64,000 nt of DNA from Lachnospiraceae bacterium. GTDB lineage: Bacteria; Bacillota; Clostridia; Lachnospirales; Lachnospiraceae. The stretch spans positions 124,001-188,000 of the forward strand of contig CAJTHM010000011.1 in the NCBI GenBank assembly GCA_910576125.1, read 5' to 3'. Each line of letters opens with the position of its first letter. The stretch's first letter is position 1. Of the stretch, positions 415-12,180 are shown in pieces. Made by a program: the position numbers and the translations under genes. Below the pieces are notes generated by a model. It worked only from the letters and a program-made list of their open reading frames with translations. It was not told the DNA's origin and did not search any database.

Positions 415-1740
415 TCACTCCTGCCTTTCCAGCTCCCAGATATGACGGTTCCTGCGGAAGTACAGGCACACCCCGATTCCCGCAAAGGCAATCACGAAGA
501 AAAGGAATGCCGCGCCTGAGCCCTTGCCGCTGCCAAAGAGCCGCGTCAGTACGCTGCCCGCATCCTGAACCGCCATCAGAGGCTCGAATACCTGATCCAC
601 CAGGAATCCTCCCAGGAAATACCCGATGGGTATCGTAAAGAACTGCAGGGAATTCCGCACGGAGTACACTCTTCCCTGCATCTGCTCCGGTACGCGCAGC
701 CGCATAAGGGCATCCAGATTGGCGCTCATCAGCGGTATGGAAATCCATCCCAGAAATCCGCCGATGCACCAGACAAACGGTGTCCTGCCCAGGGCCAGGA
801 AGAAATTCTCGAAGCTCATGGAAAACAGCAGGCAGTTGCAGATGACCCGCACCCGGCTCTTTGGCACTTTCACGAAAGAGGCAATGACGCTCCCCGCCAG
901 AGTGGAGACACCGATGACCGCGTTCACCAGCCCCATAACCTTCTCGCTCCCGCCCTCCCTGGAGAGCATCATGGCCGGGAAAGCCGCATCATAGATGGAA
1001 GCGACCAGGTTGATGGCAGCCAGGAACAGAATCAGCCCCATTATCCCTTTCTGCTCCTGCAGATAGGCCAGCCCCTTCTTCACCGAAGTCCACAGCTTCT
1101 CTTTCTCCTCTTCCTCCACTGTCTCTTTCGGGATGCGGATGCAAAAGGCCAGAGTCAGGAAAGCGATGCCGAAAGTGCCTAAGTCAAAGGCCACCACTGC
1201 CCCCATCCCCGCAATGCCCAGCACGGCCGTGGCGATGACGGGCGTCATGATGGAATTCAGGGCGCTGGAGAGATACCTGAGGCCCCCCACCCGCTGGTAG
1301 TATTTCCTGGGCAGGACTTTCGTCACCGCCACCTCCGAGGCCGGCTGCTGAACCGTGTTCATCAGCCCGTTGATGCCGTTGATCAGATACAGATGCCATA
1401 TCTGCAGCCTGCCGCCGCGCAGCAGAATCAGCATGACTACCGTGGTGGCCGCCGCCAGGGTGTCGCAGACCAGCATGGTGGCTTTCTTGTTCCACTTATC
1501 GCTCAGGGCGCCCGCGAAAATGCTCAGAAGCACATAAGGCGTGTAGGAGCTCACCATCAAAAGCGCCGTCATCAGGGCGGAGCCTTTCTGGGTGTAAGAC
1601 CAGATGACCAGCGCATAGCTGGTCATGGCGCTTCCGAGCCCGGAAAAAGACTGGGTGAGCCACAGCAGCAGAAATGTGCGCATTTCCTGAATCGTGTTCC
1701 TCAAATTCCTGATATTTTTGATATGTTCAATGTTTTTCAT
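415..1740 (-). CDS. MFS efflux transporter, DHA3/MFS_3 (MefA-like) type
   Basis: This is a 441-residue membrane protein with about twelve hydrophobic helices. The DKWNKK motif between helices 2 and 3 fits the MFS_3/DHA3 drug-exporter group that includes macrolide efflux pumps. Length is normal for the family. The ATG is preceded by AAGGAG at good spacing, but the SD sits in a strong stem and a leader peptide lies upstream (separate entries), an arrangement known for genes induced by ribosome-targeting antibiotics. The last ~27 codons have a second, 89 % similar copy at 12091-12178. Export of a ribosome-acting drug is inferred from family and leader, not shown. An alternative is a multidrug or metabolite exporter. 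Confidence 0.82.
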   Translation of the reverse strand: MKNIEHIKNIRNLRNTIQEMRTFLLLWLTQSFSGLGSAMTSYALVIWSYTQKGSALMTALLMVSSYTPYVLLSIFAGALSDKWNKKATMLVCDTLAAATTVVMLILLRGGRLQIWHLYLINGINGLMNTVQQPASEVAVTKVLPRKYYQRVGGLRYLSSALNSIMTPVIATAVLGIAGMGAVVAFDLGTFGIAFLTLAFCIRIPKETVEEEEKEKLWTSVKKGLAYLQEQKGIMGLILFLAAINLVASIYDAAFPAMMLSREGGSEKVMGLVNAVIGVSTLAGSVIASFVKVPKSRVRVICNCLLFSMSFENFFLALGRTPFVWCIGGFLGWISIPLMSANLDALMRLRVPEQMQGRVYSVRNSLQFFTIPIGYFLGGFLVDQVFEPLMAVQDAGSVLTRLFGSGKGSGAAFLFFVIAFAGIGVCLYFRRNRHIWELERQE

Positions 1741-1864
1741 AGACTTTGCTCCTTATCTGATTTCATGATTGTTTTTTAGTCAATAACAATACGGTAAATC
1801 AAGCAAAGTCCCAGAGCAGTCATTCTACTCCATGCAATCCTGCCCTACAAGACTTTGCATGGAG
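1741..1864 (-). promoter_or_regulatory. Translational attenuator in front of the MFS pump
   Basis: Read on the minus strand, the leader contains two stems. The upstream one pairs TCCATGCAA (1855-1863 on the plus strand, read as its complement) with TTGCATGGA (1829-1837) and includes the 3' end of the leader peptide. The downstream one pairs GACTTTGCT (1802-1810) with AGCAAAGTC (1742-1750), extended inward by TGATTT/AAATCA and ATTGTT/AACAAT, and holds the SD of the pump gene (AAGGAG) at its base. A third segment inside the leader peptide, GCAAAGTC, can pair with the GACTTTGC arm and would free the SD. This is the geometry of erm-type attenuation. The folding is read by eye. Confidence 0.7.
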
Positions 1865-1886
1865 CTGATGCAATCATTAGCAGCAT
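1845..1886 (-). CDS. Leader peptide (13 aa) of the MFS attenuator
   Basis: A 13-codon frame reads MLLMIASAPCKVL and stops with TAG. It has a near-perfect SD (GAGGAGG) eight bases before its ATG, stronger than that of most genes here. It lies between the promoter at 1947-1975 and the MFS pump, and its last codons form one arm of the first attenuator stem. That placement suggests a cis-acting peptide whose stalled translation rearranges the leader. Its sequence matches no leader I recognise by name. It is inferred to act in cis, not as a product. Confidence 0.65.
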   Translation of the reverse strand: MLLMIASAPCKVL

Positions 1887-1946
1887 AATTCTTTCCTCCT
1901 CATATTTCATCTGTTGTGAAAGCCTGAAGCCATCATAATGCCCTTT

Positions 1947-1975
1947 ATTATATGCAATTTTGAAGCATATGGCAA
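1947..1975 (-). promoter_or_regulatory. Sigma-A type promoter of the MFS leader and pump
   Basis: On the minus strand there is TTGCCA (1970-1975), a 17-base spacer and a perfect TATAAT (1947-1952). A start near 1940 would give a leader of about 200 bases containing the peptide and both stems. Confidence 0.7.
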
Positions 1976-2091
1976 GCTATATCTTTCAATTTTAATCCCG
2001 TTTTTCCGTCCTTGAACACCACGATTCTGTCGCCCGGGACGGCGTCCGGGACATTCTGGTTGATGAGTTCCAAGGCTTTCGATTCCTGCTA
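1948..2091 (-). pseudogene. Possible 3' remnant of an unidentified gene
   Basis: An open frame of 46 codons without a start codon, bounded by TAG at 2089-2091 and TAA at 1948-1950, reads like true protein (it contains the segment VPGDRIVVFKDGKTGLKLKD). The promoter of the MFS leader lies inside its last codons. I do not recognise the family. It could also be a chance frame. The rest of the interval 1887-2299 holds only a perfect 14-base palindrome at 2121-2134. Confidence 0.3.
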
Positions 2092-2299
2092 TCCTCTGTT
2101 TACAGGGTTTTCGTCTTGTGTTACAATATTGTAAAAGAATCCGGTTCCAGATTCCGTACAAAAGAACAATAAGGTGAATGAGGGCGTTTTTTAAAAGGCA
2201 GAATGACCCGGAGCACGCCATATGGGACAAGGACTTTTAGGACTCGCTGTACCTGAAGTACGGCCTGTGACAGTATATGCAAGGTACCAGGAGGAAAAC

Positions 2300-2788
2300 A
2301 TGGACAGAAAAGCAATGGCCAGGGAGACCCTTCGTGTGCGGTCAGGGTGGGATAGAGGGCGCTGGACACCGCCAGTCGTGTTCTTCCGAGATGAGAGCTT
2401 CCGGTTGACAGAGACCCCTGTGAAAGCTTCCGTGCTGACCTTGCCGGCAGTCAATATGGGGCAAGTGCTTTTGAAGGGAGAGAATGTACAGGAAGCCAAA
2501 AAGGCCATGCGCCGGAGAATGAGGCTGGCTCTGGGAATCTTTGCAGAGCAGAAAGCAAAGCATCTGGTGCTTGGAGCCTATGGATGCGGCGTATTCCGAA
2601 ACGACCCCGGGGAGGTGGCGGTTTGGTGGAGAGAGCTTCTGGAAGAAGGAATGGGCCGGTATTTCGATTCTGTGTTTCATGCTGTGTTAGACCATTCTAA
2701 AGAAAAAAACTGTATCAAGGCATTTCAGGAGCTGTCCGCACATCCCATAGCAGGCTCTCAGGGAATCATGCGAAGCGTCCAGGGGTAA
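2300..2788 (+). pseudogene. Internally truncated TIGR02452 (macro-domain-like) protein
   Basis: The frame encodes 162 residues from an ATG with AGGAGG five bases upstream. Residues 1-13 resemble the N-terminus of TIGR02452 proteins (MARETL) and residues 20-150 resemble their last third, including LGAYGCGVFRNDP at 91-103. The family is normally about 260-290 residues. The segment with the glycine-rich ADP-ribose-binding loop is missing, so an internal deletion near base 2340 is likely. The protein could still be made but should lack the complete macro-domain pocket. It converges on, and overlaps by about 30 bases, the gene ending at 2758. Confidence 0.6.
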
Positions 2789-12090: not shown

Positions 12091-12180
12091 TCAGTCCTCC
12101 CGCCTCTCCAGCTCCCAGGTATGCCTGTTCCTGCGGAAATACAGGCATACCCCGATGCCCGCAAAAGCGACTGCGGCTTT
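12091..12180 (-). pseudogene. C-terminal tail of a lost MFS gene (duplicate of 415-500)
   Basis: A 28-codon frame ends FAGIGVCLYFRRNRHTWELE-RRED and stop. It matches the end of the MFS pump at 415 (FAGIGVCLYFRRNRHIWELE-RQE), with about 48 of 54 bases identical in the best part. It is fused directly to the stop codon of the ATPase gene at 12181. The rest of that MFS gene is absent. The two tails lie in the same orientation and bracket the 11.6-kb island. Confidence 0.75.

Follow-up and report, generated by a model that had tools for sequence, protein, structure and literature searches.

A predicted translational attenuator in front of MFS efflux pumps and occasional other resistance genes in gut bacteria and their relatives

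Introduction

In the ermC leader RNA, segment 2 pairs with segment 3. Attenuators of the ermC type hold the ribosome-binding site of the target gene in a stem, and a ribosome stalled by the drug permits an alternative structure (PMC5418344). The cat, cmlA and fexA genes are listed as carrying phenicol-inducible attenuators (PMC5418344, Table 1). The target of the mef(E)/mel attenuator is an efflux pump from the superfamily of the pump studied here (PMC4335068). In Bacillus subtilis, the vmlR attenuator governs a factor that gives resistance to drugs of the peptidyl transferase centre, namely pleuromutilin, lincosamide and streptogramin A (PMC9226507).

Here we analyse a similar arrangement in a 64,000 nt stretch of DNA, hereafter the window. 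Its attenuator region spans 1738-1975 on the minus strand and consists of a promoter-like site, a leader and four segments capable of pairing, the last of which holds the Shine-Dalgarno sequence (SD) of a pump gene. Rfam covariance models gave no match to window 1500-2300 at E up to 1, and searches of open-access literature listings and Rfam returned no description of this attenuator family. The family belongs to a known kind, probably the translational attenuator, and no account of this family was found in the open-access literature searched.

Results

The features of the locus are as follows.

1947..1975, minus strand: promoter-like site TTGCCA-17-TATAAT, with 11/12 consensus matches
1895..1900, minus strand: leader SD, AGGAGG
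1845..1886, minus strand: leader ORF MLLMIASAPCKVL plus stop; ATG at 1886, stop at 1847-1845, 13 codons
1872..1874, minus strand: predicted P-site codon AUU (Ile5) of the putative activating stall, from footprint scans of 111 orthologues
1856..1864, minus strand: segment 1a, CTCCATGCA, within the leader; partner, segment 2
1840..1858, minus strand: segment 1b, GCAAAGTC...GGGCAG, the leader end and bases just past the stop; anti-sequestor arm; partner, segment 3
1828..1837, minus strand: segment 2, TTGCATGGAG; partner, segment 1a
1803..1819, minus strand: segment 3, CTGCTCTGGGACTTTGC, including GACTTTGC at 1810-1803; partner, segment 1b or 4
1742..1752, minus strand: segment 4, GGAGCAAAGTC, holding the pump SD; partner, segment 3
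415..1740, minus strand: MFS efflux pump, putatively DHA3-type, 441 aa, Mef-like; matches MFS_1/MFS_3 profiles, below all Mef cut-offs

The original prediction had placed a perfect sigma-A promoter, a 13-codon ORF with a strong SD and mutually exclusive complementary segments at this locus. The promoter-like site is strong and near consensus, one match short of perfect, and is one of three such sites in 1650-2150 (1.3 +/- 1.3 in shuffles). The ORF is present on the minus strand behind AGGAGG at 1900-1895, and the exclusive segments, the last pairing over the pump SD, were found by sequence, folding and covariation among orthologues. The segments can form either 1a:2 together with 3:4, whose stem includes the pump SD, or 1b:3; GCAAAGTC itself lies at 1858-1851 and its pairing extends to 1840. 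The duplex energies are -15.0 kcal/mol for 1a:2, -22.5 for 1b:3 and -13.6 for 3:4 (10 pairs counted). For 1720-1940 the minimum free energy (MFE) is -56.3, whereas shuffled sequences average -45.7 (z -2.7; as low in 2/200 shuffles), and both 1a:2 and 3:4 are formed in the MFE structure. Support for this arrangement is moderate from folding alone and strong from comparison.

The pump scores 77.1 with PF05977, over the cut-off of 27, and 156.8 with TIGR00900, below the cut-off of 319.6, two profiles that we take to stand for DHA3-type MFS proteins. Assignment as a macrolide-type Mef pump was rejected, the best Mef profile reaching 95.5 of 870 bits, far under the NCBIfam curated cut-off. A comparison with solved structures gave no sequence match. 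A second MFS-like gene lies at 1-403 on the minus strand, starting at about 403, some 12 bases past the pump stop, and running off the window edge; its open frame scores just under the Pfam MFS_1/MFS_2 cut-offs, and the two genes probably form one operon. A 25-residue remnant at 12097-12171 (minus strand) is 88% identical to the pump C-terminus and is the sole further pump piece that tblastn of the pump across the window detected (E 0.01). The window's genome contains one copy of the element.

We looked for the same leader and stem in front of homologous pumps. Some pump match was present in 69/101 same-genus genomes, and the covariance model described below found the element at 20 of the 22 same-genus pump loci that match best (L003-L024, >=47% identity, the window's own included); by that model it is absent at the other two, L010 and L011. 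Among the next eight loci, a partial close homologue (L030) carries the main element type, and the seven others (L025-L029, L031, L032; about 38-40% identity) show by eye the same layout with different sequences, most having the leader MLC[HYR]-x-x-IDLS..LCT[RG]S; the model matched five of these seven weakly (E 5e-5 to 0.009). Shortened elements occur at L006 1453-1548 and L007 2772-2852. At L006, segment 2 overlaps the pump SD, so that a single hairpin would suffice for hiding it.

Scanning one genome from each species with a sequence pattern yielded at least 119 loci. Among those listed, an APC leader could be parsed together with its start at 116, and at 112 a homologous MFS pump (38-86% identity) follows on the same strand, no more than 1.8 kb away. 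The loci without a pump are L067 and L070 (Paenibacillus), which precede a CD3324-family gene, and L082, which precedes a CatA-like gene; L076, L098 and L106 offer just 41-230 bases of downstream sequence, and L085 has no pump match in its 613 downstream bases. Conservation of the APC codons and of ATTG at -9 (positions in bases from the GCT codon) in the 119 listed loci is by construction, as both were set by the search pattern. The leader and the paired segments are conserved in orthologous loci, contrary to what would have refuted the original prediction at the sequence level, and a leader-peptide attenuator before this putatively DHA3-type pump is well supported.

For comparison, we parsed 134 loci (119 from the pattern, the window and 14 of the same genus) and kept 115, setting aside 19 in which the leader or pump start was unparsed or low-scoring. 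Four same-genus loci (L004, L019, L020, L023) are exact duplicates of pattern loci. Six sequences with long spacers were omitted, 109 were carried on, and thinning of near-duplicates left alignment A1 with 86 sequences, window included, from which the covariance model was built. The share of paired cells in A1 is 96.0% for 1a:2, much of which the search pattern fixes, 87.7% for 1b:3 and 80.8% for 3:4. Cells changed on both sides number 118 for 1b:3 (46.4 in shuffles) and 23 for 3:4 (5.8 in shuffles). The covariation scores of all three helices exceed all 500 shuffles and all slid versions, although the sequences are related, so that these shuffle figures and the Fisher figure below overstate independence. 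Counted as pairs changed on both sides, the contrast is 12 vs 10.1 in shuffles for 1b:3 (reached by 32/500 shuffles), 4 vs 2.5 for 3:4 (52/500) and 1 vs 1.0 for the largely pattern-fixed 1a:2 (498/500).

Since segment 3 pairs with either 1b or 4, we also scored three-way agreement, with both pairings intact. Of five positions, three (columns 33/111/173, 35/109/175 and 36/108/176) have a higher count than every one of 2000 shuffles (85 sequences vs a mean of 80.2, 50 vs 37.0 and 57 vs 41.4), and the other two, which are nearly invariant, do not. RNAalifold alone recovers both 1a:2 and 3:4, although its covariation term is just -0.36. Among sequences that the search pattern did not fix, changes of CCA to CCG or to CTA in 1a are by eye matched in segment 2 (L163, L166, L169, L170; L159-L161). 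As the CTA change swaps the leader Pro for Leu and keeps the pairing, this part of the peptide seems to be held by pairing and not as a residue, and the conserved APC seems to be kept mainly for encoding the RNA arms 1a and 1b.

In 111 of the 115 kept orthologues, the sequence upstream of a ribosome edge was removed and pairing was computed. The ribosome reaches 16 bases, by which the edge was converted to the P site. In equilibrium folding, a ribosome edge that leaves core+5 to core+7 as the first free base gives an open 3:4 (P <0.5) in 86-91/111 sequences, against 12/111 at core+8, 0-1 from +10 and none from +11; with edges further upstream 3:4 is open in 50-60/111 (core-8 to core+0) and 20-52/111 (core+1 to +4). 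The optimum P site is the codon nine bases before GCT (-9), where 3:4 is open in 79% of sequences against 41% without a ribosome; the figures are 50-54% at -21 or -18, 47% at -12 and 1% at -6. The GGAG of the SD is accessible (mean unpaired probability >0.5) in 15% without a ribosome, 46% at -9, 37-38% at -6 to +12 and, for the 20 sequences reaching +15, 70%. The equilibrium contrast between ribosome positions is therefore modest.

The nascent RNA, folded before segment 4 is made, shows a sharp contrast between ribosome positions: 1b:3 is formed (P >0.5) in 111/111 sequences with the P site at -9 and in 0/111 with the ribosome at GCT or the stop, the window being included in both counts. Without a ribosome, the mean probability of 1b:3 in nascent RNA is 0.81; as 1b:3 wins there, the off state would need translation of the leader. 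In the window, 3:4 never opens at equilibrium at any ribosome position, and 1b:3 does switch in nascent RNA. The window's switch would hence have to act during transcription. The GGAG bases of its pump SD are partly unpaired (0.44-0.45) at every ribosome position. With Met at the sensor position and a very strong 3:4 stem, the window copy is atypical.

The residues just before the predicted P-site codon are constrained. In 101 pattern loci, codon -15 encodes Leu in 95, using all six codons, and never Phe (Fisher p 2e-14, from related sequences). Codon -12 encodes Cys in 71, Ala in 15, Ile in 4, Thr in 3, Met in 3 and others in five; the window's Met is thus shared by just 3/101. A second leader set, found mostly without the pattern and in part by a model trained on pattern loci, which brings some bias, comprised 40 of 44 leaders (L016, L013, L171 and L175 were lost); with L005 mis-parsed and uncounted at -12 and -9, Cys or Ala occupies -12 in 26/39, and -9 is Ile in 32, Leu in 3, Ser in 2, Asn and Gln in the rest of the 39. 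All 32 Ile residues at -9 in that set are encoded by AUU, with no pairing or other reason apparent. The leaders of pumps L237-L239 read M[RK][LI]C[RS]G-x-APCKV. On this comparison, the peptide-level constraint is the Leu-(Cys/Ala) pair directly before the predicted P-site codon, conserved as amino acids. The core of the original prediction stands, with the role given to the peptide refined to this pair and the APC part seemingly kept mainly for RNA pairing. Chloramphenicol and linezolid stall ribosomes best with a penultimate Ala and less with Ser/Thr (PMC8987054), and Cys/Ala before the P site fits this reported preference for a small penultimate residue, though Cys is unnamed in the available text of that article (PMC8987054).

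The covariance model matched 28/391 genomes of the class, from 26/222 genera (own genome included), 4/299 in a draw from the phylum (own included) and 9/149 in the order of genome G703, which the likeness of L242 to L070 suggests to be a Paenibacillus-like group. Downstream of the 29 class-genome matches are 21 pump homologues (own included), a pump C-terminal remnant (L175), three CatA-like, two Cfr and one CD3324-family gene; L179 has no clear assignment. The phylum and G703-order draws add pumps (L234, L237-L240), a remnant (L235) and CD3324-family genes (L236, L241-L244). At L175, L235 and L048 the late part of a pump follows the leader directly, as if the pump front had been deleted; the remnants start at pump residue 391 in L175 and 396 in L235, and L048 was judged by eye. 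On 199 plasmid records the best places all have <60% identity to the pump. The element is visible by eye at the two best plasmid matches (Monoglobus, Subdoligranulum), and the Monoglobus record, with chromosome-like genes around the element locus, may be an assembly piece. By these matches, the predicted attenuator family precedes the same type of pump, now and then other resistance genes, across many gut bacteria and some relatives.

The CatA-like genes behind the element (L082, L171, L172, L176) are all over the PF00302 cut-off and, at 196-214 bits, all under the 270-bit NCBIfam CatA cut-off; that of L176 is followed by a Vat-like acetyltransferase gene (242 of 300 bits). Three of the 70 genomes having a CAT match carry the element before a CAT gene. 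In 30 CAT loci fetched, it was found at L201 (the L172 locus) alone, L199 being a chance match inside a gene, and no leader was recognizable by eye in 320 bases upstream of the single plasmid CatA-like match (Pusillibacter). Cfr exceeds its cut-off in 2/391 class genomes, and the element lies directly upstream in both. These element-Cfr units stand behind an ABC-F gene, which in G471 is Lsa family over cut-off. One Clostridia genome (L245 1603-4317) shows an Lsa-family ABC-F gene, then the attenuator, then cfr. Cfr leaders are less clear than pump leaders: that of L180, MAINMFNRNIKVTHNRLHAKPDVLGDACME, has a weak SD, and that of L178 was framed by eye, our script having parsed no SD. The plasmid cfr records (20 listed of 181) match L180 just from query base 190 or 245, outside the leader.

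Small proteins of the CD3324 family are encoded behind related attenuators at L067, L070, L173, L236 and L241-L244, all eight over the NF040785 cut-off, hinting at a role of this family in the response to ribosome-targeting drugs; its name was not found in the open-access literature searched. At Cfr and CD3324 loci (L067, L070, L180, L236, L241, L242) the core is read in another frame, as LHA[KRE][PS], and a third frame is used at L243 (parsed), L173 and L244 (by eye). The 38-40% pump clade has an LHAK-like frame (LCTR). The core thus seems, from these sequences, to be kept by its multiple pairings, with differing sensors upstream of it. This changed reading frame through a kept core is the basis on which we tentatively propose that a single attenuator chassis works as an exchangeable sensor of drugs in Clostridia and Paenibacillus alike. 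The core CTCCATGCA / GCAAAGTC / SD copy would stand before mechanistically unrelated defences against drugs of the peptidyl transferase centre (the MFS pump, the CatA-like acetyltransferase and the Cfr methyltransferase) and before the uncharacterised CD3324 family, the sensor peptide and frame would be exchanged, and specificity would evolve apart from the switch.

Discussion

The attenuator is probably worked by an early ribosome stall in the leader, as sequence conservation and modelled folding suggest. Without drug, the ribosome would read the leader to its stop and cover 1b, segment 3 would pair with 4 and place the pump SD in a stem, and 1a:2 could then keep 1b apart. A drug at the peptidyl transferase centre would stall the ribosome once about five residues have been joined, its P site lying nine bases before GCT. 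The stalled ribosome would mask 1a and leave 1b free, 1b would capture segment 3, and the pump SD would be released. The sequences and folding models show the conservation, the covariation, the folding geometry and the amino-acid constraint at the two residues before the predicted stall site; the stalling itself, the class of drug and the export of that drug by the pump are our inference.

The same attenuator could be induced by macrolides, as erm and mef/mel leaders are, an explanation that differs in the drug alone. The pump is Mef-like (E 3.4e-27 with the MefC profile), and mef/mel is induced by macrolides through attenuation (PMC4335068). We nevertheless consider macrolide induction improbable, as all Mef profiles stay far under their cut-offs for this pump and the element is common to CatA-like and Cfr genes. 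To our knowledge, neither CatA nor Cfr has a macrolide-specific function. Phenicols are the substrates of CatA, and the protection given by Cfr extends to phenicols, lincosamides, oxazolidinones, pleuromutilins and streptogramin A. Since CatA-like and Cfr genes share the element, its inducer is most simply a peptidyl-transferase-centre drug and not a macrolide. By this analogy, drugs of that class are on balance the favored inducers, with phenicols as a possible first candidate.

Control by structure alone, with a peptide that has no sensing role, would explain why the RNA core is kept where it is read in another frame (Cfr and CD3324 loci) and why CTA variants lose the leader Pro and retain the pairing. 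It seems unlikely in view of the Leu at -15 spelled by all six codons and the Cys/Ala at -12, which lie outside the paired segments. Transcription attenuation, in which one alternative stem would be an intrinsic terminator, is very unlikely. A T-rich stretch does follow segment 3 in many orthologues of the alignment, and the long-range 1b:3 stem is outside the reach of our terminator scan, which allowed loops of 3-8 only; yet that stretch is partly paired with the SD region, and a 1b:3 terminator would switch the pump off upon stalling. An intrinsic terminator was rejected on the scan of 1650-2150, which gave no minus-strand terminator-like site with loops of 3-8. A starvation attenuator sensing cysteine by its Cys codons is extremely improbable and was rejected on the footprint scan: Cys is at -12 in 71/101 loci and the APC Cys, pattern-fixed there, is kept in the set found without the pattern, but a ribosome waiting at the -12 Cys (edge about core+1 with the 16-base reach) opens 3:4 in just 20/111 and one at the APC Cys codon in 0/111, Ala replaces Cys at -12 in 15/101, and the downstream genes are of drug-resistance types.

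Should induction prove real, the element is a drug-sensing attenuator of wide distribution, present in 26/222 sampled genera of the class; it would give a probable drug class for a large group of uncharacterised pumps and predict inducible control of Cfr in some Clostridia. The predicted sensor residue, Cys/Ala before the P site, varies over about 100 natural copies, so that the way in which peptidyl-transferase-centre drugs read short nascent chains could be tested on them.

Among the described systems, the cat, cmlA and fexA attenuators resemble this family in acting on the translation of a gene for a chloramphenicol acetyltransferase or exporter, and respond to phenicols (PMC5418344). They differ from the present case, a single RNA family with a conserved core before unrelated genes (MFS pump, CatA-like, Cfr, CD3324). 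The mef(E)/mel attenuator is transcriptional and macrolide-induced (PMC4335068), whereas no terminator-like site was found here in 1650-2150 of the minus strand with loops of 3-8. The vmlR attenuator combines polymerase pausing with transcription and translation attenuation, and its target is an ABC-F protein (PMC9226507). Unlike in ermC, the leader tail 1b would here act as the anti-sequestor, and 1b and segment 4 have the same sequence, GCAAAGTC in the window.
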